Origin: Pseudomonadota bacterium
Lineage (GTDB): Bacteria > Myxococcota_A > UBA9042 > GCA-2863065
Assembly: GCA_005776585.1 (NCBI GenBank)
Contig: SXOX01000162.1
Coordinates: forward strand, 1-64,000
Reading direction: 5' to 3'
DNA: 64,000 nucleotides
Made by a program: the position numbers and the translations under genes. The notes under the pieces were generated by a model that saw nothing but the letters and a program-made list of their open reading frames with translations, searched no databases and was not told the origin of the DNA. Each line of letters starts with the position of its first letter. The first letter of the stretch is position 1. Of the stretch, positions 41,795 to 55,261 are shown in pieces.

Positions 41795-42652
41795 TCAGTG
41801 CCGCGCGATCGGGCTCACGTCGCGCGGATCGAGGCCGCGGGCCGCGAGGGGCCCAAGGACGGCAGAGTCCAGCGCGGCGTGCGCCGTGCGAAAGTAGGTC
41901 TTGGGATCCATCCAGCCCAGCGTGCTCTGGTGCATGTCGGCCTCCGACGGCTCGGCGAACCGCTGCCAGGCGCCCAGGAGCTTGTCGATCTCGTCGCGCG
42001 CCACCCACCGCAAGCGCTGCCGCTCGGCCTCCGTCAGCAGCTCTCCGGCCCAGTCCAGGAAATACCACCCGAAGCGCCCGTGGGCGGCCTCGTCCTTGAC
42101 GATGCGCTGCAGCACGGCCCGGATGAGCGGCTGGCGCGCGTGACGAGCGCTCGCCCGGAGGATGGGGATGCTGACCGCCTCGCCGACGCAAAAGACACGC
42201 ATCACGACCTCGGCGCTGCGCAGCAGCGGTCGCGCTGACTCGCGTCCGGTCACGCCCAGCCGGTCGGGCTCATACAGCAGCGGTGCGGCGCCGCCGAGCT
42301 CGGCCAGAAGCCGCGCGCACAGCTCCACGTGGACGATCTCGTCGAGGGGGAAGCGCGTAGCGACGGCCACGAGATCGAGCGGCGCAGAGGCCTCCAGCAG
42401 CAGCCGTAGGGCAGTCGTGCAGGAGGCCCCCGTGCGGTACTCCTGAAACGCGGCCATCGTCCAGATGCGGCGGGCCTTTTCGACGACCGACGGCGCCTCT
42501 GTGGCGACCTCTGCCGCCAGCGAGCCCCAGGGCAGTCGCTCCACCTCGGGGCGCATCCGGCGGTACTGGCGCTCGAGCGCGCCGCCGAGCAGCCCGAGCT
42601 CGAAGCGCTCGAAGGAGTCGGGGACGTCGGCCAGCGTAAGTGGTGCGCTCAT
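41795..42652 (-). CDS. Ferritin-like diiron-domain protein
   Basis: 285 residues from ATG 42652. A four-helix bundle is suggested by two metal-type motifs, DEIVHVELCARLL (ExxH near residue 108) and VKDEAAHGRFGWYFLDWAG (ExxH near 187), plus the acidic helices AAFQEYRTGAS and GEAVSIPIL. The combination fits ferritin-like superfamily oxidases or hydroxylases rather than storage ferritin, which lacks this length. It sits between a repetitive lipoprotein gene (3-base gap) and the membrane protein. The substrate is unknown, and a role in modifying an envelope component is only a guess. Confidence 0.8.
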   Translation of the reverse strand: MSAPLTLADVPDSFERFELGLLGGALERQYRRMRPEVERLPWGSLAAEVATEAPSVVEKARRIWTMAAFQEYRTGASCTTALRLLLEASAPLDLVAVATRFPLDEIVHVELCARLLAELGGAAPLLYEPDRLGVTGRESARPLLRSAEVVMRVFCVGEAVSIPILRASARHARQPLIRAVLQRIVKDEAAHGRFGWYFLDWAGELLTEAERQRLRWVARDEIDKLLGAWQRFAEPSEADMHQSTLGWMDPKTYFRTAHAALDSAVLGPLAARGLDPRDVSPIARH

Positions 42653-42655
42653 GGC

Positions 42656-43144
42656 TCACCCGGCATCGGGCGGCGGTGCGATGACGTCAGTCTCGGGTGG
42701 CAGCAGGTTCCCGACCGGGGGCCCTTCGTCGGGGACGTCGGGTCCGGTGTCCGGGGGCGGCGTCACGACGTCCGTGTCGGGCGGCAGCAGGTTTCCGGCC
42801 GGTGGGCCCTCGTCGGGGACATCCGGTCCCGTATCCGGCGGCGGAGTGATGACATCGGTGTCTGGTGGCAGCAGATTACCCGACGAGATGGCCTCCGGAA
42901 CGTCGGGCGTGGTGTCGGTGGGGACCGGGCCGGCGTCGGGGGGCAGCAGGTTGCCGCTCACACCGAAGTCGGTCGTCTTGCCGTCCGTCTGTACGGAGTC
43001 CGAGGCCGGAGGCAGGGGGTTGCCCGTCGTGTTGCAGGACGACGCCATGCCCACGATGAGGATGCCCGTACCGCCAGCGGCGGTCAGCAGCGGCTTCCAG
43101 CGCAGCGCCGCGCCAAACTTCGAGTTCGTGTTCCAGAGCTTCAT
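42656..43144 (-). CDS. Repetitive proline/aspartate-rich lipoprotein
   Basis: 162 residues from ATG 43144. The N-terminus has a hydrophobic stretch and a Cys at MASSC (a weak lipobox). The rest is a Pro/Asp/Gly linker built on GNLLPPDTDVxTPPPDTGPD (28-residue unit). No folded domain is visible, so it may be a spacer or a surface coat. It is the first gene of the operon with the ferritin-like protein. The underlying DNA repeat is recorded separately. Confidence 0.7.
   Translation of the reverse strand: MKLWNTNSKFGAALRWKPLLTAAGGTGILIVGMASSCNTTGNPLPPASDSVQTDGKTTDFGVSGNLLPPDAGPVPTDTTPDVPEAISSGNLLPPDTDVITPPPDTGPDVPDEGPPAGNLLPPDTDVVTPPPDTGPDVPDEGPPVGNLLPPETDVIAPPPDAG
42701..42868 (-). repeat. Two 84-bp tandem units in the lipoprotein gene
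   Basis: Starting at 42701, 42785 and 42869 the DNA opens with the same CAGCAG(G/A)TT(T/C)CC-like start, a spacing of 84 bases (28 codons), with mostly synonymous and some conservative differences. Degenerate partial units continue on both sides (from about 42668 and to about 43020). Such repeats change copy number by slippage. Confidence 0.8.
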
Positions 43145-43633: not shown

Positions 43634-46618
43634 ATGGTTCGCCCCGAGCGCCACGGGTGTCGTGTCCAGGCCGGCCCGAGCCGGCGCCGGCCGCGGGCCA
43701 CGCTCACTTGGCTCCTCTCGAGCCTCGCCGCAGTCGGCTGCCTCGACGACGACCGCGCGCTGTTCGAAGAACGCGTCGTGCCTGTGTTGGAGAGCCGATG
43801 CGCCGCCTCGACATGTCACGGGGTCCCCGCCGGCCTCGACGGCGTGTCGGTCGATCCGCGGTGGTTCGCCCTCGCGTTGGATGACCACGGCCACCTCTCC
43901 GATCACGACGACGCCTACCGGCAAGCCGTCGCGCGCGTCAACGCCGACGATCCGGCCTTGTCCACGCTGCTGCGCCGGACGTTGCCCGTAGCTCAAGGAG
44001 GCCTCGCCCACTTCGGCGGCGCGGTGTTCCCGTCACGTGCCCACGCCGCGCATGTGGCGCTCGAGGACTTCGCGCGCGCTACCGCCGGGCGAGAGGACGC
44101 CTCCGAGCCGCCGCTCACGACCCTCGAGCGGCGCTTCCAGGACGAGGTCTACCCCGTGCTCGTACGCCGCGGGTGCGTCGTGGCCACATGCCACGGCACG
44201 CTCAACTTCGGTGGCGCGGTGTTCCCTCCGCCACGCGATCTGAGCCGCCCGGTACTGTCGCGCTCAGAGCTGCGCCACGCGTCGACCGAGGCGCGCACGA
44301 ACCTGACGCTCTGGGCGCACCCGCTGCAGGCGCGACTCGTGCGCAAGATTCTGCCGCTCGAGCAGGGCGGCATCCCGCACAAGGGCGGCAACGATGTGTT
44401 CCTGGCCGCGGCTGCCGAGGCCGGTCTCGACCCGCGTGACTCGGACGAGGTCCGAGCGCTCCTGGGCTGGCAAGCTGCGGTTCGCGCCGAGGCGTTGGGT
44501 GGCGACGCCCCGGCGGCGGGCGCACTGGCGGGCGTGGTCGCAGTCGGCGGTCCGCTCTCGACCGGGGCGGTGTTCGAGCCACGGCCGTACGTGGGCCCGA
44601 CGGCGCTCTACCGCGTGGACGGTCCGCTCCCCGGCGGCACGGTCACCGATCTCACGACCGCCGCGCTCGGCACCGAGGCCGAGGTGCGCGACCCGGCCGT
44701 GTCGCATGACGGCCGCATGCTCGCGTTCTCGGCACGACGCGGCAAGGACGACGCGCTCAACGTCTACACGCTCGGCGTCGACGGCACCGGACTGCGCCAG
44801 CTGACGCGAGATGTCCCGGTCGCGGGGCGCATCGCCCACGTGCCGGCCAACATGTCCCCCACGTTCGGCCCGAGCGGCGGGCGAGGCACCGCCGGGCGCC
44901 TCTACTTCGTATCGTTCCGGGGCGACGTCGGTGATGCAGCGTCGGTGGCCAACAGCGATCTCTACGTCATGGACACCGACGGCGGTCACCCCGAGCGGCT
45001 GACCTGGACGGTCGTCCCGGAGGTGGCTCCCACCTTCCTGGCGGTGGGCGAATTTCACGGCACCGTGGCCTACACCATCAAGCGCGCATTCGACGCGGGA
45101 CCGAAAGGCGTGCTGTTTCGCTTCCCCATCGACCACGACCGCACCCGGCACCTCCAGCCCGAGGCGCACCCGCACTTCGGCATGTCCGAGCCGCCGCAGG
45201 TGTTTTTCGGGCTGCGCGAGCTGCCCGATGGTCGTGGCGTGATGACCCTGCTCGACGCCGCGAACCGCACGCTCGGGGGTCAGCTCGCCGTGCTCGATCG
45301 GCAGTTCGCCGTCGAGGTGCCCGAGGGCGCCGAGGCGACCGCCACCCTGCCCGGCTTCCGCCACGCGCTCACGAACCTGACGCCCCACGTGACCCGCGAC
45401 GGCCTGAGCCCCGGGGGCCTGTGGCGCGATCCGGTGCCGCTGCCCGACGGCGCTATCCTGGCTGCGCATGCGCCAGGGCCCGTCGACCTCAACGCGCCGC
45501 CTGCCGACCTGCGCACCGACCTCGTGAAGATCACGCTGCGCCACGAGCGCGCCACGCAGCGCCCCGTGCTCGACACCCAGACCACCTGGCTGAGCGGCGA
45601 CCGCGCCTGGTCGCAGCCCGTGCCGCTCGTGCCGCGACCGCTCGAGGACGACGCCCACGAGCGTGCGTGGACCAACGACGACACGCCGGCCCTCATCGTG
45701 CACAGCGGCGTCGATGTGGTCGAGGCGCTCCTGGCCCAGCTCCCGCCGGTAGGGCCGCGCACCGTGCGCACCGACCTCGCGGCCCTTCGGCTCGTCGCGC
45801 CGCTGCACGCGATCGCGTCGCTCGACCCCATCCCTGTGCCTGCCGCTGAGACACGCGACGGCCACCCGGGGGCGACGACGCTCTCGGTCTCGGGCCACAT
45901 GCCCTTGTTTGCGGCTGCGGAGGCGGCGCTCGAGAGCGACATGAGCCTCTCGGCCACCGTGCCACCGCGGGTGTCCGTGAGGGTGGTGACGCTCGACGCC
46001 TCTGGCATGGCCACGGGCGCGCTGCAGCCGCACTGGTACGCGCTGTTGCCCGGCGAGCGCTTCCCGGTCGGAGTCCAGCGCACGTCGTTCGAGGCCCGGT
46101 GCGCGGGCTGTCACGGCTCGATGTCGGGCGCACGCGGCGAGGTGCTCGGGCCTCCGGTCGACTTTCTCACGCAGGCCTCGGTCACGCGCGCCACTCACGT
46201 CGACGCCAACCGCTGGCGGCCCCGCGCACCGCCGAACGTGACGGCCGACGCCTTTCGCTTCGCCGACTTCAGGCAGGACGTCCTGCCGCTCCTCGAACGG
46301 CACTGCATTCACTGCCACAGCGGAAGCGCGCCCGCCGGCGGTCTCTCGCTCACCGCGACACCGACGACGCACTACGTCGACGCGTATGAGTCACTGCTGA
46401 CTCCGGGCATTGGCTCCACGGGCGGCTATCGATGGGTCGACGCCGCAACGCATCGCGCCCGCCGTTCGGCACTGGTCGAGCGGCTGCTGGGCCAGGAGCT
46501 CGACGCTCCGCGCACGGTGACGGGCCGCTGCCCGCCCGAGGCTCCGCTGCCCGAGGACGCGCGCCGCATCCTCGTGCGCTGGATCGAGCTCGGCGCGCCC
46601 TACCGAGGGCGACCATGA
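43634..46618 (+). CDS. Multi-heme cytochrome/TolB-like propeller lipoprotein
   Basis: 994 residues from ATG 43634, first of seven tightly packed genes. The lipobox is AVGC (Cys36). Two heme-type sites near the N-terminus have unusual four-residue spacing: CAASTCH (Cys56) and CVVATCH (about Cys181). A TolB-like propeller region spans roughly 340-600 (SHDGRMLAFSARRG, NSDLYVMDTDGG). The C-terminus has two normal sites, CAGCH (about 823) and CIHCH (about 891). It is likely an outer-surface or periplasmic electron-transfer protein. The frame is open upstream to a TTG at 43589, but that extension lacks a signal. Stop and next start overlap (ATGA). Confidence 0.85.
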   Translation: MVRPERHGCRVQAGPSRRRPRATLTWLLSSLAAVGCLDDDRALFEERVVPVLESRCAASTCHGVPAGLDGVSVDPRWFALALDDHGHLSDHDDAYRQAVARVNADDPALSTLLRRTLPVAQGGLAHFGGAVFPSRAHAAHVALEDFARATAGREDASEPPLTTLERRFQDEVYPVLVRRGCVVATCHGTLNFGGAVFPPPRDLSRPVLSRSELRHASTEARTNLTLWAHPLQARLVRKILPLEQGGIPHKGGNDVFLAAAAEAGLDPRDSDEVRALLGWQAAVRAEALGGDAPAAGALAGVVAVGGPLSTGAVFEPRPYVGPTALYRVDGPLPGGTVTDLTTAALGTEAEVRDPAVSHDGRMLAFSARRGKDDALNVYTLGVDGTGLRQLTRDVPVAGRIAHVPANMSPTFGPSGGRGTAGRLYFVSFRGDVGDAASVANSDLYVMDTDGGHPERLTWTVVPEVAPTFLAVGEFHGTVAYTIKRAFDAGPKGVLFRFPIDHDRTRHLQPEAHPHFGMSEPPQVFFGLRELPDGRGVMTLLDAANRTLGGQLAVLDRQFAVEVPEGAEATATLPGFRHALTNLTPHVTRDGLSPGGLWRDPVPLPDGAILAAHAPGPVDLNAPPADLRTDLVKITLRHERATQRPVLDTQTTWLSGDRAWSQPVPLVPRPLEDDAHERAWTNDDTPALIVHSGVDVVEALLAQLPPVGPRTVRTDLAALRLVAPLHAIASLDPIPVPAAETRDGHPGATTLSVSGHMPLFAAAEAALESDMSLSATVPPRVSVRVVTLDASGMATGALQPHWYALLPGERFPVGVQRTSFEARCAGCHGSMSGARGEVLGPPVDFLTQASVTRATHVDANRWRPRAPPNVTADAFRFADFRQDVLPLLERHCIHCHSGSAPAGGLSLTATPTTHYVDAYESLLTPGIGSTGGYRWVDAATHRARRSALVERLLGQELDAPRTVTGRCPPEAPLPEDARRILVRWIELGAPYRGRP

Positions 46619-47028
46619 GGCGACCGCTCGCTGCATTGATGCTCGCGTGTGCCGCCTGCGGTGACACCGGCGGCAGCACGACGCTCGCGAGCCCCGACGT
46701 GGCCCGGTTCGAGACACTGGTCGCACCGGTGCTCGAGACCTCGTGCGCCTCGGTGAGCTGTCACGGGGACGCGCAGCGTCCGCTCGCGCTCTACGCGCCC
46801 CGACAACGGCGGCTGGACCCCGCGGCGCGCTACGACAAGACCCCGCTCACGCCGGCCGAGGTACGCGCCAACTACGACGCGGTGCGCGGGTTCCTGGACG
46901 CGGCCTCAGCGTTGGACACGACGCTGGTGCGCCGGCCGCTCGGGTACGCGGGCCACACCGTGGTGTTCGAGGCGCCGAGCGACCCCGGCTGCCGCGCCTT
47001 GCGCGAGTGGCTCGAGGGCCCGCCATGA
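46615..47028 (+). CDS. Small heme-type lipoprotein
   Basis: 137 residues from ATG 46615, overlapping the previous stop. A very short signal (MRRPLAALMLAC) gives a lipobox near Cys12. One heme-type motif with four-residue spacing occurs as CASVSCHGD (Cys44 to His50). The rest (YDKTPLTPAEVRANYDAVRG) resembles a single small cytochrome-like domain. The stop overlaps the start of the next gene (ATGA). It is probably a partner or donor for the propeller cytochrome. Confidence 0.75.
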   Translation: MRRPLAALMLACAACGDTGGSTTLASPDVARFETLVAPVLETSCASVSCHGDAQRPLALYAPRQRRLDPAARYDKTPLTPAEVRANYDAVRGFLDAASALDTTLVRRPLGYAGHTVVFEAPSDPGCRALREWLEGPP

Positions 47029-49544
47029 CGTCCCACCGCGCCACGTGGGCGCTCGTTGCATGGGTGCTCGCCACAGGGGCCCTGGCCTGCTCCGACGCCG
47101 CGACGCCGCGGGTCGTGGGCATGCTGGCCCCGCCGGTGAACCCCATCCCGCAGAGCGATCCGCTCTGGTCGCCTGCGCCGCATCGCGACCGACCGCGCGC
47201 CCTGTGCCTCACGCCTGACGGCCGGCGCGCGTTCGTCTTGCTCGCCGGCGTCGAGGACGACCCGGGCACGGCGGTGGCGGTCGTGGACCTGGTCCAAGGC
47301 CGTGTCACGCGCCGCATCCCCGTGGGCACCTCACCCTACGGCTGCGCCCTCGATCCCGCGGGCCGCTGGCTGGTGGTCACCCTGCGCACGTCCGACCACG
47401 CCGCCGTGCTGGACGTCGCCGCCGAGGCGGTCGCGGCGTGGGTGCCCACGCCCTCCTACACCGAGAGCGCGCTGTTCTCGGCCGACGGGCGCCGTGTGGT
47501 CCTCGCCAACCGCTGGAAGGACTCCGTGCTCGTCTGGGATCTGGCCGCGGGCCCCGACTTCGTGGTGACCGGCACCAACTACGACGGCCCCGACCTGCGC
47601 CCCGAAGACCCCATGGGCGCACCGGTGGGCGAGAACCCGGGTCCGATGGTGCTCTCGGCCGATGGCAGCCGCCTGTTCGTCGGCGCCGTCGCAGGCTGCA
47701 ACCTCACCGTGCTCGATGCCCACACGCTTGCACGCGTCGGGCAGCGCGACCTGCGCTCGCCCGTCGGTGGGCTCGCGGCCAAGGGCGACTACGTGTTCGT
47801 CAGTGACATGGGCCCGGGTCTCGGCCAGCACCCGACACAGGGCAACGACCTCGACGGCGATGGCGCGCCCGGCGACGGCACTGCCAACGTCATCTTCCAG
47901 GACCTGCAGAACGAGCTCGCCGTCATCGACGTCCGCACGCTGGCCGAGGTCCACCGGTATACGTCGGACACGACCTGCTGCCGCGACTTTCGCGACGTCG
48001 ATCCGGACGCTCCCGACCGCGGCACCCGGCTGCCGGCGCCCGACACCTGGAAGCCCGACGTCGTGGCATACCTGCCCCCGCGAAGCACTTGGATCGTGCG
48101 CGGCGCGCTGCCCGAGGCCATGACAGTCGACGCCGACACTCTCTGGGTCGCCTACGCAGGCTCGAACGAGGTCGAGGGCTTCACCATCGGCGCTGACGGC
48201 GCGCTCACGCCGCGTCCGGGCCCGACGCTCGCCACCGGCATGAATCCCAAGGCGCTCGCCGTCGGTGCCGACGGGCGGCTCTTGACCGTCGATCGGCTCG
48301 GCGAGAGCCTCACCATCCTCGATCCGACGGTGCCGTGGGTGGCCCCGCCCAGCGCGCTCGCCCCCGCAGGAACGACGCCGCCGGCCGATACGCGTGTGAT
48401 GACCGTCGTCGTCGGCGACCTGGCTCGGGGCGCCTTCCCAGCGACCGACGCGGAGCTCGGCGAGGCCATCAACGAGATGACGGCGGCCTTCACCATCGAC
48501 GGCGACCAGACCTGCGTGCACTGCCACCGCGACAATGGCGCCATCGCGCGGCCGATCATCATGCCGCTTCAGCAGAGCCGCTTGCATGGCGCGCGCAACG
48601 TCATGGCGCAGCGCGGCCTCTTCGAGACGCGGCCGTGGTTTTTCGAGTCGGCCATGACCGAGGAGAACTTCTTCCCTGTGCTCAACGAGTTCGCGCGCAA
48701 GGAGAACTTCTGCTGCGAGCAGCTCGACCCGACGGTGTGGAGCCAGTACCCCTCGGCTGGGACGTGCGCCCAGGCCCCTACGACACCGGGTTGCGTGCAC
48801 GTGCTCGATTGCGCAAACCACCCGCCGCCCGAGTGCGCCGCGCGCCCCTACGCTGAGGGCGCACCGCTGAAGCGCGCCGAGCTCATCAAGCAGGCCGCAC
48901 GACGCCTGTTCGGTCGCGACACGACCTTTGGCGACGTCCTCGTGACGACACGCGCCGACGGGAGCCGCGCACCAATGGCGCTCGACTTCGATGGCCTGAC
49001 GCGCGCCGTGGGCCTCTTCATGCTGCGAACCTCGCGCCTGTTGCCCAACCCGAACGCAGCGCTGGCCCTCCCGAGCGCGCAGCGGGGCCGCGCGGTGTTC
49101 GAGGACCCGAGCGTTGGCTGCGCGACGTGTCACCCCCTGCCGCTCACGACGACCGCCACGCTACCCGAGCCGTTTTCGCCGTTCGGGATGCCCATTCGCT
49201 TCCCGCCGGTGGTCACGCCCTCGCTCACGCCCGAAGGCGTCGACGCGTCGCGCGTCACAGCCGGCTTCCTGAGCACCTTTCCGCTCACGGTGCAGGGACC
49301 CGCGGGGCTGCATCTCGGTGCCACGCCGCTGCGAGGTCTCTGGGACCGCCCCGCGTCACGGCTGCTGCACGACGGCCGCGCCCGCTCGCTGCGCGAGGTG
49401 CTCGCCACGCCGGGTCATCCTGGACTGCGCAAGGGCGAGGTCGGGCGCAACGAGCGCGGCGGCGTCTTCGACACCCATGGCGGCACGAGCCACCTGCGCC
49501 CGGCCGACCTCGATGACCTCGAACAGTTCCTCCGGACCCTGTGA
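47025..49544 (+). CDS. YVTN-like propeller plus diheme cytochrome c lipoprotein
   Basis: 839 residues from ATG 47025. The lipobox is ALAC. An N-terminal YVTN/NHL-type propeller (about 60-460) has blades such as LTPDGRRAFVLLAG and VGTSPYGCALDPAGRWLVV. A C-terminal region has two heme sites, CVHCH (about 497) and CATCH (about 699), with the MauG/diheme-peroxidase style ending TPLRGLWDRPASRLLHDGRA. That resemblance suggests oxidative or peroxidase chemistry on a protein partner, but the relevant residues were not proved. The stop is at 49544; the next gene starts ten bases on. Confidence 0.85.
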   Translation: MTSHRATWALVAWVLATGALACSDAATPRVVGMLAPPVNPIPQSDPLWSPAPHRDRPRALCLTPDGRRAFVLLAGVEDDPGTAVAVVDLVQGRVTRRIPVGTSPYGCALDPAGRWLVVTLRTSDHAAVLDVAAEAVAAWVPTPSYTESALFSADGRRVVLANRWKDSVLVWDLAAGPDFVVTGTNYDGPDLRPEDPMGAPVGENPGPMVLSADGSRLFVGAVAGCNLTVLDAHTLARVGQRDLRSPVGGLAAKGDYVFVSDMGPGLGQHPTQGNDLDGDGAPGDGTANVIFQDLQNELAVIDVRTLAEVHRYTSDTTCCRDFRDVDPDAPDRGTRLPAPDTWKPDVVAYLPPRSTWIVRGALPEAMTVDADTLWVAYAGSNEVEGFTIGADGALTPRPGPTLATGMNPKALAVGADGRLLTVDRLGESLTILDPTVPWVAPPSALAPAGTTPPADTRVMTVVVGDLARGAFPATDAELGEAINEMTAAFTIDGDQTCVHCHRDNGAIARPIIMPLQQSRLHGARNVMAQRGLFETRPWFFESAMTEENFFPVLNEFARKENFCCEQLDPTVWSQYPSAGTCAQAPTTPGCVHVLDCANHPPPECAARPYAEGAPLKRAELIKQAARRLFGRDTTFGDVLVTTRADGSRAPMALDFDGLTRAVGLFMLRTSRLLPNPNAALALPSAQRGRAVFEDPSVGCATCHPLPLTTTATLPEPFSPFGMPIRFPPVVTPSLTPEGVDASRVTAGFLSTFPLTVQGPAGLHLGATPLRGLWDRPASRLLHDGRARSLREVLATPGHPGLRKGEVGRNERGGVFDTHGGTSHLRPADLDDLEQFLRTL

Positions 49545-49554
49545 GGTGCCCGCC

Positions 49555-49785
49555 GTGTCTGCCTCTCGCCCGCACTCGCTCCTTCAAGCCGCCCTCGTTG
49601 GCCTCGCCCTGATGTGCGCATCGTGCGCGACCGTTCGGCCCTGGGAGCGCGGCGCCTTGGCCGACCGCCTCCTCCGGTGGGCGCCGTGCCCCGAGCGGTC
49701 CACGGCACGCGAACACGTGTTCGCGGTGCGGGAGGGCGTCCAGGGGGGACACGGCCACGACGGCGGTGGGTGCGGCTGTGACTGA
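49555..49785 (+). CDS. DUF4266 small lipoprotein
   Basis: 76 residues from GTG 49555 (GTG 49546 is an alternative), with GAGG upstream. The lipobox is CASC. The signature CATVRPWERGALADRLLR and the end REGVQGGHGHDGGGCGCD match DUF4266, a short family whose C-terminal Gly/His/Cys motif (GGGCGC) may bind a metal. DUF4266 genes usually stand next to DUF3570 genes, as here. Short genes like this are easy to miss. Eight bases overlap the next gene. Confidence 0.85.
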   Translation: MSASRPHSLLQAALVGLALMCASCATVRPWERGALADRLLRWAPCPERSTAREHVFAVREGVQGGHGHDGGGCGCD

Positions 49786-50914
49786 CGCGGGGTTCAAGGC
49801 GCGCCCGTGTGTCGTCGTGTGCCTGCTGCTTGTGGGGGGGACCGCCCGAGCCGGGGATCGCGCCAACGCCTCGCTGATGGTCTACGGCGACAGCGACCAC
49901 GTGCTCGTCTTTTCGCCCACGACCGCCGGACAGGTCACGGTCGGCCCCGTGGAGCTCGGAGCGCACGTGACCCTCGACATCATCTCGGCGGCATCGGTCG
50001 ACCTGGTGACCGCGGCGTCGCCGCGGGGCTACCGCGAGGTGCGCACCGAGGCGGGCGCCGGAGTCGCCTGGGACCTCACGCAAGGCGGGGGACGTCGGCT
50101 GGTGTCGCTCGGCTACACGACCTCGCAGGAGCCCGACTTCCGCACACACCAGCTCGCGGTCGGCACCTCGCTCGACCTGCTCGACCGCCTCGCCACGCTC
50201 TCACTGGGCTACGGGTTCGGCCACTCGCGCTACGGGCACGTCGACGCCCTGGACGACTGGCAGGCCCGGCTCACCCATCGCGTCGATGTCGGCTGGACCC
50301 ACGTGCTGCACCGGGCGGTCACGCTGGATGTGGCCTACGGCCTGACCATCCTCGACGGCGCCCAGCAGAGCCCCTACCGCTTCGTGCGGCTCTACGCGCC
50401 GGGCGCTCCCGCGGGTGCCACGCACACGACGGCCGTGGCCGAGGCCGTGCCGGACCTGCGGCTGCGCCACACGGCCACCGCCCGCGTTCGAGCGCGGCTC
50501 GTGCCGCACCTGTTCCTCATTGGCGACTACCGGTTCTACGGCGACTCGTGGGGCGTCGTGGGCCACACCGGCACGCTGCGGCTGGCGCTCGGCCTGCTCG
50601 ACGACGCGCTCACGATCGCCGTCGAGGGCCGCTTCACCCACCAGTCCGCCGCGACCTTCTACCGCGCACGCTACGAGTCCGTCACCGGCGCTGACGCGCG
50701 CATCCCAGAGTGGCGCACCGCCGACAAGGAGCTGTCGCCGCTCTGGACCACGCTCGCCGGCCTGCAGCTCGAGTACACCGCGCGCCTGGGCCAAGGCCAC
50801 GTGCTGCGCGTGGGTGCGGGTGCGGACGCCTACATCCTCGGCTACCTCGACTACGCCTACGCCTCGCGCCGCACGGCGTTCATCACCACGTTCGACCTCA
50901 CCTGGGAGCACTGA
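49778..50914 (+). CDS. DUF3570 outer-membrane-type beta-barrel protein
   Basis: 378 residues from GTG 49778 (GTG 49766 possible). A signal peptide is followed by alternating strands rich in aromatic termini (FRTHQLAVGTSLDLLDRL, LGYGFGHSRYGHVDA, LIGDYRFYGDSWG, ending FITTFDLTWEH). A terminal aromatic-containing strand is typical of outer-membrane barrels. DUF3570 proteins are poorly characterised and co-occur with DUF4266 and thioredoxin-like proteins. Here it could be the outer-membrane channel of the operon. Confidence 0.85.
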   Translation: MTDAGFKARPCVVVCLLLVGGTARAGDRANASLMVYGDSDHVLVFSPTTAGQVTVGPVELGAHVTLDIISAASVDLVTAASPRGYREVRTEAGAGVAWDLTQGGGRRLVSLGYTTSQEPDFRTHQLAVGTSLDLLDRLATLSLGYGFGHSRYGHVDALDDWQARLTHRVDVGWTHVLHRAVTLDVAYGLTILDGAQQSPYRFVRLYAPGAPAGATHTTAVAEAVPDLRLRHTATARVRARLVPHLFLIGDYRFYGDSWGVVGHTGTLRLALGLLDDALTIAVEGRFTHQSAATFYRARYESVTGADARIPEWRTADKELSPLWTTLAGLQLEYTARLGQGHVLRVGAGADAYILGYLDYAYASRRTAFITTFDLTWEH

Positions 50915-50916
50915 GC

Positions 50917-51465
50917 ATGGCCAACCTCACCCGCTGGGCAGGGTCGTTGACCTGCGCCGCCCTGACGCTCGCGTGCCCCGCGCCGGAGTCGACCCTGGGG
51001 CAGGCGCCCACCGACACCGTCGCACCGGTGTTGCCCGCCTGCTCCGAGACCGGTGTGATCACCTCGGTCAATCCGTCCGGCGATCTTCCCAGCACGGGAG
51101 GCACGCTTCCCGTCACGCTCGGCTTTCAGGGCTTCCAGTTTGCGCAGCTCGGCCTCCGCGCTCCGGTCGCGCTGTCGAGCCCCACGACGGTCCGTACGCG
51201 GGTGACCGTGCCCGGCAAGATGAGCACGAGCGCCACGTACGCGCGCGTGCGGCTGACGTCGGGCGGATCCAACCTGGCCACGGTGCCCCTGCTGGTGTTC
51301 TTCAACGACGTCCCGCTGGCGGAGCTCTACGGCCAGCCGGCCACGATCACGCTGGAGGCCTCGACCGGGACGTGCTGGGTCGCTGCCACCGTGACGGTCA
51401 CGCTCGGACAGGGCGGGTTTGCCGACGCCGACGCAACGCTTTGGGCCGACGGCGGGGCCCGATGA
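50917..51465 (+). CDS. Small lipoprotein of the cytochrome operon
   Basis: 182 residues from ATG 50917, three bases after the previous stop. The lipobox is TLAC. One Ig/TIG-like beta domain (about 45-180: SVNPSGDLPSTGGTLPVTLG, TVRTRVTVPG) has a cysteine pair. The stop overlaps the start of the TlpA gene (ATGA). No enzymatic motif. Confidence 0.7.
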   Translation: MANLTRWAGSLTCAALTLACPAPESTLGQAPTDTVAPVLPACSETGVITSVNPSGDLPSTGGTLPVTLGFQGFQFAQLGLRAPVALSSPTTVRTRVTVPGKMSTSATYARVRLTSGGSNLATVPLLVFFNDVPLAELYGQPATITLEASTGTCWVAATVTVTLGQGGFADADATLWADGGAR

Positions 51466-51953
51466 GCGCCATCGCGACCTTGGGCCGGCTCACTGCGCTC
51501 TTGGCCGTGTCCAGCGCTGCTGCCGACGGGCCGCCGCCCATGGCGCCGGAGCTGGCCCTGCCCGATCTCTCCGGCCGCGTCGTGCGGTTGAGCGCACACC
51601 GCGGCGCGTGGGTGGTCATCGACTTCTGGGCCACGTGGTGCGAGCCGTGCCGCGAGGCCATGGCGGAGCACGCCCGCCTCGCCGCCGCGTGGCCGAAGCG
51701 CCTCGTGGTGCTCACCGTGTCCGTCGACGAGGAGGACGCGCCCGTGCGCCGCTGGGTCGCCGAGCACGGCGTGACCCTGCCGGTGCTCCGCGATCCCAAG
51801 GGAGTCTCACCGGCGGCGTATGGCGTGACGGGGATGCCTTACGCGGTTCTGGTGGACCCCGAGGGGCGGCTGGTCTTCCGCGTGCCCGAAGCGCCGTACC
51901 CGCGGTTGCGCGACGAGGTCACGCGGCGACTCGGGGCCGACAGGGGCGAATGA
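51462..51953 (+). CDS. TlpA-type thioredoxin-fold disulfide reductase
   Basis: 163 residues from ATG 51462. A signal-like N-terminus is followed by a redoxin domain with the active site WCEPC in FWATWCEPCREAMAEH and the cis-Pro loop GVTGMPYAVLVDPEG. Exported TlpA proteins reduce periplasmic disulfides, often for cytochrome maturation or metal-site assembly, which fits the heme- and Cys-rich products of this operon. It is the last gene of the cluster. Confidence 0.9.
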   Translation: MSAIATLGRLTALLAVSSAAADGPPPMAPELALPDLSGRVVRLSAHRGAWVVIDFWATWCEPCREAMAEHARLAAAWPKRLVVLTVSVDEEDAPVRRWVAEHGVTLPVLRDPKGVSPAAYGVTGMPYAVLVDPEGRLVFRVPEAPYPRLRDEVTRRLGADRGE

Positions 51954-52009: not shown

Positions 52010-55000
52010 ATGCACACGGTCCAACGCCCTCCCCTGCTGTCTGTGATGGTCCTGCTCCTGTCTGCCGGATGTTCGGGAAGAGAAGAAGCGACACAGGCTC
52101 CGGCTCCGGCGTCGGCGTCGCTCGAAATCCTCGCGTTCGACGTCGTCGGCCGCCCGTGGGGCGACGCGCCGGTGACGTTGACCTTCGGTTGGTCCATTCG
52201 GGGCACGGATGGGCCGCTGACGTGCCAGCTCGACTGGGAGGGCGACGGCGTCATCGATCGCACGCTCGCGGACTGCCGTGCCGAGACGCTGTCCACGGGC
52301 GCCGGAGACGGCGCGACCACGACGTACACGAAGACCGGCGAGCACCGGCCCCGACTCGTGGTCACCGATGGCGTGCGCACGGCCGAGGCCAGCACCTCCA
52401 TCTTCGCGAACTTCATCACCCTCGCCCCGGGCGTGATCGAGCCGGCGCGGCTCCCAGGCTACGTCGCGCAAGAAGCGTCCTGGCCCCAAGCGAGCGACGT
52501 CGGCCGAGTGCCGCCGCACGTCGTGCTCACCTTCGCCGATCCGTCCCAGGTGCCGGTGCTGGTGCCCGGCACGATCGTCTGGGGCCAGACCTGGTACATG
52601 AAGGTCGCCGTCGCCGTCGCCTCGGGTGCGACGCTCGCCATCGACGGCGAGGCCATCCCGCTGACTGCGGCCGTTCAGGACGCCTTCGTCGGAGCGCGGG
52701 ACGTGGCGCCGCCGATGGGTGACGCGCGCTGCATCGCGGCCTCCTGTGAGGGCGCCGTCTTCGAGCCGCTCCCCGCGAGCAAGCCGCACGCCGTGCGGGA
52801 CGGGGCGCTCGAGTTCGAGGTGAAGAAGGGCTCGGCCGGCCTCAAGACGAAGCTGCCGGTCGGGAGCGCACAGGACTTCGAGCACACGCTGTTCGTCGGT
52901 ATCAAGGTGAACAAGGTCATCCTCGAGATCGGCGTCTTCGAGCTCAAGCGGCTCGAGGTCGACATCAACCCGAGCATCAAGTACGAGTTCAACCTCCTGG
53001 CCAACCTCTTCAAGCTCGACCCCGCGCTGTCGATCGGGCCCATCGTGCTGGGCACCATCCCGCTGAGCGCCTTGCCACCGATCGCGGTCGTCATCGCCCT
53101 CGTCGTGGACGTGAAGGCTCAGGCGGACTTCAAGTTCGGAGCGGCCATCGAGGTCAACGTGCCGCTCAAGGCCAACTACAATCATCAGAACCCGAACGCG
53201 TTCACCTTCGACGTCTCGCCGGAGCTCATCGCCACCCCGGGCTCCAAGGAGTGGTCGGCCGGCCTCGTCGCCAAGGTCTCGGTCATCCCCAAGCTCGAGA
53301 TCCTGCTCCAAGGGCTCGTGGGGCCGTATCTCGCGCCGGTCTTTTCGGTCAGCGGCGAGGTCAAGGGCAAGAAGGGCCTCCCGCCGTCCCCGTCGCCGGC
53401 CGTCTGTGCGTCTGACTGGGTCGCCGACTTCGTCTCGCTGAACGGCGAGCGGTTCTGTGTGGCGTACAAGTACGAGCTCGGCGGTGAGGTCTCGATCGCC
53501 GCGCCCTGGTTCGAGAAGATCCTCAAGGACCTCAAGGTCCCCAAGAAGGAGCTCACGTTCGCCGACATCACGCGCGAGCAGTGCTGGGGGTTCTGCCGGC
53601 CCATGGGCGCCGACGTCGTCTCGACGCCCGATGTCCCGCTGCCCGTCGACGCGCCGCTGCCCGTCGACGTCGCCGTAGTCACCGACCCGGGCGTACCCGT
53701 CATCGATCTCGGCCCCATCGACGCTGGCGGCGGGCTGGGGCTCGGCGCCGACTGCTTCGAGGGCATGACCGTCGCCATCCCCGGGACGCCGTCGTACGCG
53801 CCGAGCCTGATGACGGTGACGAACGTGACGGAGGTCAAGGGCGGCATCGCCTTCTACCCGACAGTCATCGTCAAGCCCGAAGTCGGCGACCAGAGCAGCA
53901 AGGTGCCGGCGGACGCGAAAGTGTTCACGTTTGGCGACCCCGCTCTCCTGCACGGCGTCAAGGGCTTCCCGGAGTGGATCCTCGGCCGTCCCGTCAATCG
54001 GTCGGGCAGGTCCAACCTGATCGCGGTATGGAACGACCCCACGACCGGCGCCTTCGAGTGGATGTTCAACATCAGCGCCGGGAGCTACACCTACACCGAC
54101 CAGGCCGTGCATCGGCAGTACCAGTTCATCTACGACACGCGCGCCAACCCCAGGTACGTGTATCGGAGCTTTGGCAGCGGCGACGGGGTCACCTGGAAAG
54201 AGCTCGACCCTCCGACGCCACTCACCGCGGTGGTGTCGCTGCCCAAGGACTGCTTCGCTTTGGCGCAGCTCGACGTCGCCCCAGCCTCGGCGTCGTTCGG
54301 GAGCACCGCCGTGGGCCAGACGTCGGCGGCCGCCGCCTTCACCGTGACGAACGTCGGCAAGGCCAAGTCCTCACCCCTGGCCATCGCCCTCGGAGGGCCC
54401 AATGTCGCGGTCTTCAGCGTGACCGGCGGCACCTGCGGGGCCGGAGGCGCCATCCTCGACGCCGGTGCGAGCTGCTCAATCGCGGTCACTGCGGCGCCGC
54501 TGGCGGGGTCGGCGCTCGGTCCAGCGACCGCGAGCCTCACCGTCTCGGCGACCCTGGGCGGCACGGCGGTCGCGACACTCTCGACCACGGTGACCGACGC
54601 CGGGCTCACGCTCAGCCCGAGCCCGCACGACTTCGGCGTGCTCATCGGCGGCGGTAGCAGCCCGGACGCGCCATTCCAGGTCGGCAACACCGGCACGGCC
54701 CCCACCACGGCGGTCACGCTCTCGCTCGACGGACCCGACGCCGCCGACTTCCAGCTCACGGGCGGCACGTGCAACAGCGGCGTCACGACGCTCGCTCCGG
54801 GCGCCACGTGCACGGCCGTCGTCCGGTTCTCCCCCGGCGCCGCCGCGCTGCCCGGGGTGCGGACCGCGGTGCTCACGGCCATCGCCGCGACGGGCGGCGT
54901 CGCCACGGCCGCCGTCGTCGGCACCGTCCAGGTCGCCGCCGCGCTCACCCTGCTGCCAGGCAAGCACGACGTCCCGCCCACGGCCATCGGCGCGACCAGC

Positions 55001-55261
55001 AGCGCGCTGTTCACGGTGACCAACGGCGTCGGCGCCGCACCCACCGGGCCGCTCGCGCTGGCGATGACGGGCACCGGGGCCAGCCAGTACGCGATCGGCG
55101 GCGGGACCTGCGTGCCCGGCGCGTCGCTCCCCGGCGGCGCGAGCTGCACGGTCGCCGTGACGTTCGCGCCGACGACGAAGGCCGCCTCTGCGGCCGCGCT
55201 GACGGTGACGGCGGTCCCCGGCGGCGCGCTCGCCGGCGCGCTCACGGGCGTGGGGTTGTAG
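52010..55261 (+). CDS. Large lipoprotein with three choice-of-anchor-D-type repeats
   Basis: 1083 residues from ATG 52010. The lipobox is SAGC. An early PKD/Ig-like region (about 35-130) is followed by a domain rich in beta strands (about 240-500). A Pro/Val/Asp hinge and an ordered domain (about 590-740) come next. At the end are three similar domains of about 105 residues (from about 753), each with the pattern LxVxPxSxxFGxxxxG...FTVTN and a GGTCxxG...CxxxVxxxP pair, as in choice-of-anchor D/HYDIN-like Ig domains. Surface or periplasmic; function unknown. Confidence 0.8.
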   Translation: MHTVQRPPLLSVMVLLLSAGCSGREEATQAPAPASASLEILAFDVVGRPWGDAPVTLTFGWSIRGTDGPLTCQLDWEGDGVIDRTLADCRAETLSTGAGDGATTTYTKTGEHRPRLVVTDGVRTAEASTSIFANFITLAPGVIEPARLPGYVAQEASWPQASDVGRVPPHVVLTFADPSQVPVLVPGTIVWGQTWYMKVAVAVASGATLAIDGEAIPLTAAVQDAFVGARDVAPPMGDARCIAASCEGAVFEPLPASKPHAVRDGALEFEVKKGSAGLKTKLPVGSAQDFEHTLFVGIKVNKVILEIGVFELKRLEVDINPSIKYEFNLLANLFKLDPALSIGPIVLGTIPLSALPPIAVVIALVVDVKAQADFKFGAAIEVNVPLKANYNHQNPNAFTFDVSPELIATPGSKEWSAGLVAKVSVIPKLEILLQGLVGPYLAPVFSVSGEVKGKKGLPPSPSPAVCASDWVADFVSLNGERFCVAYKYELGGEVSIAAPWFEKILKDLKVPKKELTFADITREQCWGFCRPMGADVVSTPDVPLPVDAPLPVDVAVVTDPGVPVIDLGPIDAGGGLGLGADCFEGMTVAIPGTPSYAPSLMTVTNVTEVKGGIAFYPTVIVKPEVGDQSSKVPADAKVFTFGDPALLHGVKGFPEWILGRPVNRSGRSNLIAVWNDPTTGAFEWMFNISAGSYTYTDQAVHRQYQFIYDTRANPRYVYRSFGSGDGVTWKELDPPTPLTAVVSLPKDCFALAQLDVAPASASFGSTAVGQTSAAAAFTVTNVGKAKSSPLAIALGGPNVAVFSVTGGTCGAGGAILDAGASCSIAVTAAPLAGSALGPATASLTVSATLGGTAVATLSTTVTDAGLTLSPSPHDFGVLIGGGSSPDAPFQVGNTGTAPTTAVTLSLDGPDAADFQLTGGTCNSGVTTLAPGATCTAVVRFSPGAAALPGVRTAVLTAIAATGGVATAAVVGTVQVAAALTLLPGKHDVPPTAIGATSSALFTVTNGVGAAPTGPLALAMTGTGASQYAIGGGTCVPGASLPGGASCTVAVTFAPTTKAASAAALTVTAVPGGALAGALTGVGL

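Follow-up and report, generated by a model that had tools for sequence, protein, structure and literature searches.

Hydrazine synthase-like multiheme proteins encoded in one gene cassette with a DUF4266/DUF3570 module in Myxococcota

Hydrazine synthase (HZS) is the signature enzyme of anammox bacteria and, to our knowledge, was long believed to have no relatives beyond them. In a 64,000-nucleotide stretch of DNA (hereafter, the window; positions 1 to 64,000 of contig SXOX01000162.1, assembly GCA_005776585.1, GTDB lineage Myxococcota_A), we found a cassette of seven tightly packed genes, all on the + strand (positions 43634-51953; Table 1), that encodes HZS-like multiheme proteins together with proteins of the families DUF4266 and DUF3570. 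Two groups of described systems resemble its parts. Hagglund et al. 2025 (GBE [Genome Biology and Evolution], PMC12758564) distinguished four clades (I-IV) of co-located genes for homologues of the HZS alpha subunit and of fused beta and gamma subunits, known from Planctomycetota and from a few further species, and a 2023 study (PMC10732223) proposed that hzs-like genes from metagenome-assembled genomes (MAGs) of Planctomycetota and KSB1 represent a broad enzyme family. In the parts of these two articles available to us, no Myxococcota members of HZS-like pairs are named (for PMC12758564, by text search). On the DUF3570 side, Meheust et al. 2021 (eLife, PMC8238504) demonstrated flavinylation of a DUF3570 protein by ApbE at two [S/T]GA[S/T] sites and described such clusters as carrying a DUF4266 protein with a conserved CXC, a thioredoxin-like protein and often DsbD, the proposed donor of this flavin/thiol module. 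In the literature searched, we found nothing on DUF4266/DUF3570 other than PMC8238504, which makes out of date the view of an earlier, sequence-only reading of the window that the two families are known only as co-occurring unknowns.

The alpha-like component of the cassette is gene 1, which sequence profiles and a predicted structure identify as a homologue of the HZS alpha subunit. A gene 1 profile, built like that of gene 3 from 15 orthologues, aligns with HZS alpha (5c2v_A; E 2.2e-34) along four stretches that are collinear and span profile position 326 to the end. In a Foldseek search of PDB with an AlphaFold (AF2) model of gene 1 (predicted local distance difference test [pLDDT] 88, predicted template modeling score [pTM] 0.88), the same chain is the best match (E 9.8e-30, template modeling score [TM] 0.63 by target, 844 columns), and the next match is TolB (E 5e-12). 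The protein also matches the NCBIfam family of hydrazine synthase alpha (NF052339; E 7e-13), at 47 bits versus a cut-off of 800. Its architecture comprises N-terminal CX4CH cytochrome domains, a TolB-like propeller, and alphaI-like and alphaII-like heme domains, with two CX4CH and two CxxCH motifs in all; relative to HZS alpha, the two CX4CH sites lie in about 300 additional N-terminal residues. Gene 2 resembles these N-terminal domains (BLASTP E 2e-6) and had no family match in the Pfam or NCBIfam scans.

Gene 3 combines a beta-propeller with a diheme domain like those of cytochrome c peroxidase (CcP) and MauG, in which there are two CxxCH motifs. By profile comparison, gene 3 is a homologue of HZS beta and gamma in one fused protein: its profile matches HZS beta (5c2v_B; E 2.4e-21) and HZS gamma (5c2v_C; E 5.7e-11, or E 6.7e-13 for the C-terminal part alone), and the protein matches the NCBIfam family of HZS beta-gamma fusions (NF052342; E 1e-8) at 34 bits versus a cut-off of 1250. 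Because other propellers also match the propeller half well (1l0q; E 5e-55), the specificity of the assignment rests on the gamma match and on the beta-gamma order. The HMMER alignment to HZS gamma is largely confined to the C-terminal part and the first heme motif and leaves out the region of Trp/His144 and Cys165. In this unaligned region, 35 of 36 gene 3 sequences have a pair of cysteines (CC563-564) whose position corresponds roughly, by spacing only, to gammaCys165. Trp538, near the pocket in sequence, is invariant. On genes 1 and 3, Pfam gave just weak cytochrome and propeller matches. The sequence-only reading had described the two proteins by their propellers and multiple hemes; these features stand, and the homology to HZS had gone unrecognized.

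Compared with HZS (HzsABC; PDB 5c2v/5c2w), the cassette has homologues of the alpha, beta and gamma subunits and counterparts of hemes alphaI, alphaII, gammaI and gammaII. It differs from HZS in the extra CX4CH domains of gene 1, in the fusion of beta and gamma, in the lipoprotein nature of these proteins, in their operon with DUF4266 and DUF3570, and in scores far under the curated cut-offs. The active-site residues differ as well: position H+4 of the alphaI-type site, Tyr in HZS (alphaTyr591; CSGCHYGSY), is Ser, Asp or Asn in 30/30 gene 1 copies, and alphaHis772 has no evident equivalent in most of them. Because the active-site Tyr of alpha is missing from every gene 1 copy, we conclude from the residues that the cassette is not a hydrazine synthase.

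The closer likeness is to the HZS-like pairs, as far as the available parts of PMC12758564 and PMC10732223 describe them. As in clades I-IV, the alpha-like gene lies near a fused beta-gamma gene, alpha usually being first. The neighbors of those pairs are FG-GAP or ABC substrate-binding proteins, whereas here they are DUF4266 and DUF3570. Clade I proteins have c554-like domains, which gene 3 does not. Within the same available text, the partnership with DUF3570/DUF4266 is unreported; the cassette extends a known HZS-like superfamily to which no function is assigned.

The seven genes are joined by overlaps of 4, 4, 8 and 4 bases (at 46615, 47025, 49778 and 51462) and by gaps of 10 and 2 bases, exactly as the sequence-only reading had it. 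Earlier GTG starts are possible for gene 4 (49546) and gene 5 (49766). A sequence scan found no sigma-70-like promoter or terminator-like site within the cassette, which is weak evidence in a GC-rich genome. All seven products have a signal peptide or lipobox as judged by eye, in agreement with the earlier view that all are exported. Seven c-heme sites are distributed over gene 1 (four), gene 2 (one) and gene 3 (two).

A scan of genome contigs with the gene 3 profile yielded 36 loci, and the 22 not interrupted by a contig end were used for gene counts. By title, nearly all of the 36 come from Myxococcales, Myxococcota or Deltaproteobacteria MAGs, with one from Oligoflexia and a few from Proteobacteria. 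Genes 1, 3, 4 and 5 are all present in 22/22 uncut loci, gene 6 in 21 and gene 2 in 19, while ApbE occurs in 7 and TlpA in 4. The labelled genes are co-directional throughout the 36 loci, and their chief orders are 1-2-3-(ApbE)-4-5-6 and 1-2-4-5-6-3. The recurrence of this set in differing gene orders is more than chance would give and speaks for a linkage that has been maintained. Searches of 90 genomes that were independent of gene 3 gave a similar picture: in 13 of the 15 genomes with a gene 1 homologue of at least 200 bits, DUF3570 lies within ~7 kb on the same contig, the exceptions being G089 and G050, the latter divided over contigs. Only neighbors in close strains recurred among further flanking genes of the relatives. 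Given that genes 1, 3, 4 and 5 occur together in every uncut locus, there is good support for one functional unit of the cytochrome genes with DUF4266/DUF3570, as the sequence-only reading had suggested; the pattern by which that reading would have been refuted, with these genes mostly apart in relatives, is the opposite of what the loci show. An integral place for TlpA, also part of that reading, is not supported. TlpA and ApbE are optional and outside the conserved core, and two modules, each of which also exists alone, are stably joined in this gene 3 clade.

In the second module, PF12094 (DUF3570) and PF14086 (DUF4266) adjoin. Gene 5, the sole DUF3570 gene of the genome, likely encodes an outer-membrane barrel. 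The cassette resembles the system of PMC8238504 in its C-terminal CXC, its two flavinylation-like sites, its thioredoxin-like protein and the presence of ApbE in only a minority of cassettes, and differs from it in the attached HZS-like cytochrome module, in the Gly-to-Ala change in both motifs and in the genome, where ApbE was not found. As a Gly-to-Ala change in another ApbE substrate reduced flavinylation to about half and did not abolish it (review PMC12052999), the gene 5 sites could be modifiable were ApbE present. ApbE occurs in 77 of the 90 genomes searched. A rule by which flavin-less DUF3570 is replaced by hemes was rejected: SAAS and TAAS also occur in ApbE-containing cassettes, and motif type is unlinked to ApbE. 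An enrichment of ApbE with the HZS-like pair was likewise not supported (6/12 versus 8/26 clusters; Fisher P = 0.30). Gene 6 is predicted to be a beta-sandwich (AF2, pLDDT 82) whose model has no specific match in PDB, only generic Ig-like ones (TM ~0.3); across its family of 22 sequences, the lipobox Cys and GFQ are the invariant residues, and no Trp or Tyr is invariant. The genome encodes a DsbD elsewhere and also holds cytochrome c assembly genes.

Other features were seen around these families. In six loci (L086, L087, L089, L090, L095 and L096), a gene 2-like CX4CH lipoprotein adjoins DUF3570, with DUF4266 convergent on the opposite strand and no ApbE nearby. In the Myxococcota locus L140 (G004:C287, 607-9871), an HZS-like beta-gamma gene, ApbE and an HZS-like alpha gene with a canonical DAVTGAS occur without DUF3570, in a run that also includes a pentaheme c7-like protein, an RnfC/Nuo51-like iron-sulfur protein and an FMN_bind protein; these neighbors connect HZS-like pairs with flavin electron supply for a second time. 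Within gene 1 itself, 29/30 homologues have a D-x-x-[TS]-x-A-[ST] motif about 16 residues past the alphaI heme (window 46160-46180, residues 843-849). The motif resembles the ApbE flavinylation motif, with the canonical Gly in some copies, and it may be structural; canonical TGA[ST] occurs in loci with and without ApbE alike, and we discarded the idea that it tracks ApbE.

We propose that the products of the cassette form a single redox assembly in the envelope, in which an HZS-superfamily multiheme oxidoreductase exchanges electrons with the DUF4266/DUF3570 module, and we hold this explanation at about even confidence. One module would consist of the tetraheme alpha-like gene 1 product, the fused beta-gamma-like gene 3 product and usually the one-heme lipoprotein of gene 2; the other, of the DUF4266 CXC lipoprotein and the DUF3570 barrel, with the beta-sandwich lipoprotein of gene 6 alongside. 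A small molecule would react at the peroxidase/MauG-like, gammaI-like heme of gene 3, and the hemes of genes 1 and 2 would conduct electrons. The DUF4266/DUF3570 module would act as electron partner through its CXC thiols, plus flavin mononucleotide (FMN) on DUF3570 wherever ApbE is present, and TlpA may keep the thiols reduced here, ultimately fed by DsbD. We infer a single physical complex as well as its electron path, direction and catalysis. With respect to direction, we lean toward a reductase, because the neighborhood of L140 suggests electron input from the cell. The occurrence of the operon in many Myxococcota provides the HZS-like family with a partner and an electron route that can be tested, broadens its range and bears on the origin of HZS from existing heme proteins.

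Several points weigh against this proposal. The flavin step may be missing here, since neither SAAS nor TAAS of gene 5 fits [ST]GA[ST], Ala replacing Gly in both, and since no ApbE was found in this genome (86.7% complete). Redox cycling of the DUF4266 CXC is a suggestion only in PMC8238504, and the direction in which electrons flow is guessed. The HZS-like pair is absent from 26/38 DUF3570 loci, and the loci L137-L140 have HZS-like pairs with no DUF3570 nearby. The 36 loci were recruited via gene 3 and represent its clade, not every HZS-like pair. The evolutionary distances of genes 1, 3, 4, 5 and 6 co-vary (r = 0.79 to 0.97), which fits the proposal, though common descent would explain it too.

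Alternatively, the cassette could be an extracellular electron conduit: the propeller cytochromes would exchange electrons through the DUF3570 barrel with an acceptor or donor outside the cell, and the HZS-like proteins would serve as wires and not as enzymes. An operon that combines seven c-heme sites with lipoproteins and a probable outer-membrane barrel is consistent with this possibility. PMC8238504 connects flavinylation systems with iron reduction and extracellular reduction and records VIT1 in 25 DUF3570 clusters. The hemes, however, are single or paired in propeller and CcP-like folds with conserved enzyme-like pockets, and the Pfam and NCBIfam scans of the cassette proteins revealed neither an MtrA-like multiheme protein nor any known porin-cytochrome family. 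We regard a conduit as a less likely but serious alternative. Either of the roles that the sequence-only reading had suggested, extracellular electron transfer and the oxidizing of an external substrate, is possible.

In a bolder version of the redox assembly, a catalytic HZS-superfamily enzyme of non-anammox bacteria, anchored to the outer membrane, would convert a small molecule, drawing on electrons that the thiol/flavin module delivers. It would be the first HZS-like system to have a defined electron partner, and some alpha-like subunits could themselves bear FMN at DxxTxA[ST] beside heme alphaI. We consider this version unlikely.

The C-terminal half of gene 3 is related to the MauG/CcP diheme family via HZS gamma (PMC12758564, in its available part), which raises the prospect of a MauG/MbnH-like modification of residues in a partner protein, such as the products of genes 4 or 6, in place of a free small molecule. 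The invariant Trp538 and the near-constant presence of the small partner lipoprotein of gene 6 fit this scheme. Unlike MauG and CcP, gene 3 has a propeller fused ahead of the diheme domain. The lack of an invariant Trp or Tyr in gene 6, the absence of MbnP-like matches in the Pfam and NCBIfam scans, and the tetraheme gene 1 product, which would be superfluous in such systems, make protein modification quite unlikely. It is very unlikely that two independent modules are neighbors by chance under a common promoter: each does occur without the other, but both are present in 22/22 uncut loci, co-directional and in differing gene orders. A role like that of HZS, in true N-N bond formation or in other chemistry of hydrazine or NO, is hardly credible despite the homology to all three subunits and the CC563-564 pair placed near gammaCys165 by spacing, given the replaced alphaTyr591, the low NCBIfam score of gene 1, and the rejection of an HZS function for related pairs, in which key residues are not conserved, on similar grounds in the available part of PMC12758564.

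Table 1. Features of the cassette (window coordinates)
Feature	Position	Strand	Evidence
Gene 1, HZS-alpha-like tetraheme lipoprotein, 994 aa	43634..46618	+	NCBIfam, profile, AF2/Foldseek
Gene 1 heme site 1, CAASTCH (CX4CH)	43799..43819	+	sequence; family-conserved
Gene 1 heme site 2, CVVATCH (CX4CH)	44174..44194	+	sequence; family-conserved
Gene 1 heme site 3, CAGCH, heme alphaI counterpart; H+4 is Ser (Tyr591 in HZS)	46100..46114	+	
Gene 1 heme site 4, CIHCH, heme alphaII counterpart	46304..46318	+	
Gene 2, small lipoprotein, one CX4CH heme site	46615..47028	+	BLASTP to gene 1 N terminus
Gene 3, HZS beta-gamma-fusion-like lipoprotein, 839 aa	47025..49544	+	NF052342; profile vs 5c2v_B, 5c2v_C
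Gene 3 heme site CVHCH, heme gammaI counterpart	48513..48527	+	aligned to gamma C102-H106; invariant in 36 sequences
Gene 3 heme site CATCH, heme gammaII counterpart	49119..49133	+	aligned; invariant
Gene 4, DUF4266 lipoprotein	49555..49785	+	PF14086, 58.5 bits (cut-off 27)
Gene 4 tail GGGCGCD, conserved C-terminal CXC	49762..49782	+	CGC in all DUF4266 collected
Gene 5, DUF3570 protein	49778..50914	+	PF12094, 72.9 bits (cut-off 25)
Gene 5 flavinylation-like site 1, DIISAAS (canonical Dxx[ST]GA[ST], G to A)	49976..49996	+	
Gene 5 flavinylation-like site 2, DLVTAAS	50000..50020	+	
Gene 6, small lipoprotein, invariant GFQ (GFQGF motif)	50917..51465	+	22-sequence family; AF2
Gene 7, TlpA/ResA-type thioredoxin	51462..51953	+	PF00578 (AhpC/TlpA-type), 74.8 bits
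Gene 7 active-site motif CEPC	51639..51650	+	sequence

Outside the cassette, a large protein with ASPM-SPD-2-Hydin-like repeats is encoded 57 bases past gene 7 on the same strand (52010-55261, +); it did not recur beside the cassette in relatives. On the other side, five GNLLPP[DE]-type repeats mark a lipoprotein (42656-43144, -) that is encoded directly upstream of a gene for a ferritin-like, AurF/DUF455-like di-iron protein (41795-42652, -; PF11583, E 5e-4, below cut-off). The di-iron gene again follows a lipoprotein with GNL[LIMV]xP-type motifs in relatives L146, L147 and L148, and one possibility is that the repeat lipoprotein is the substrate of a di-iron oxygenase.

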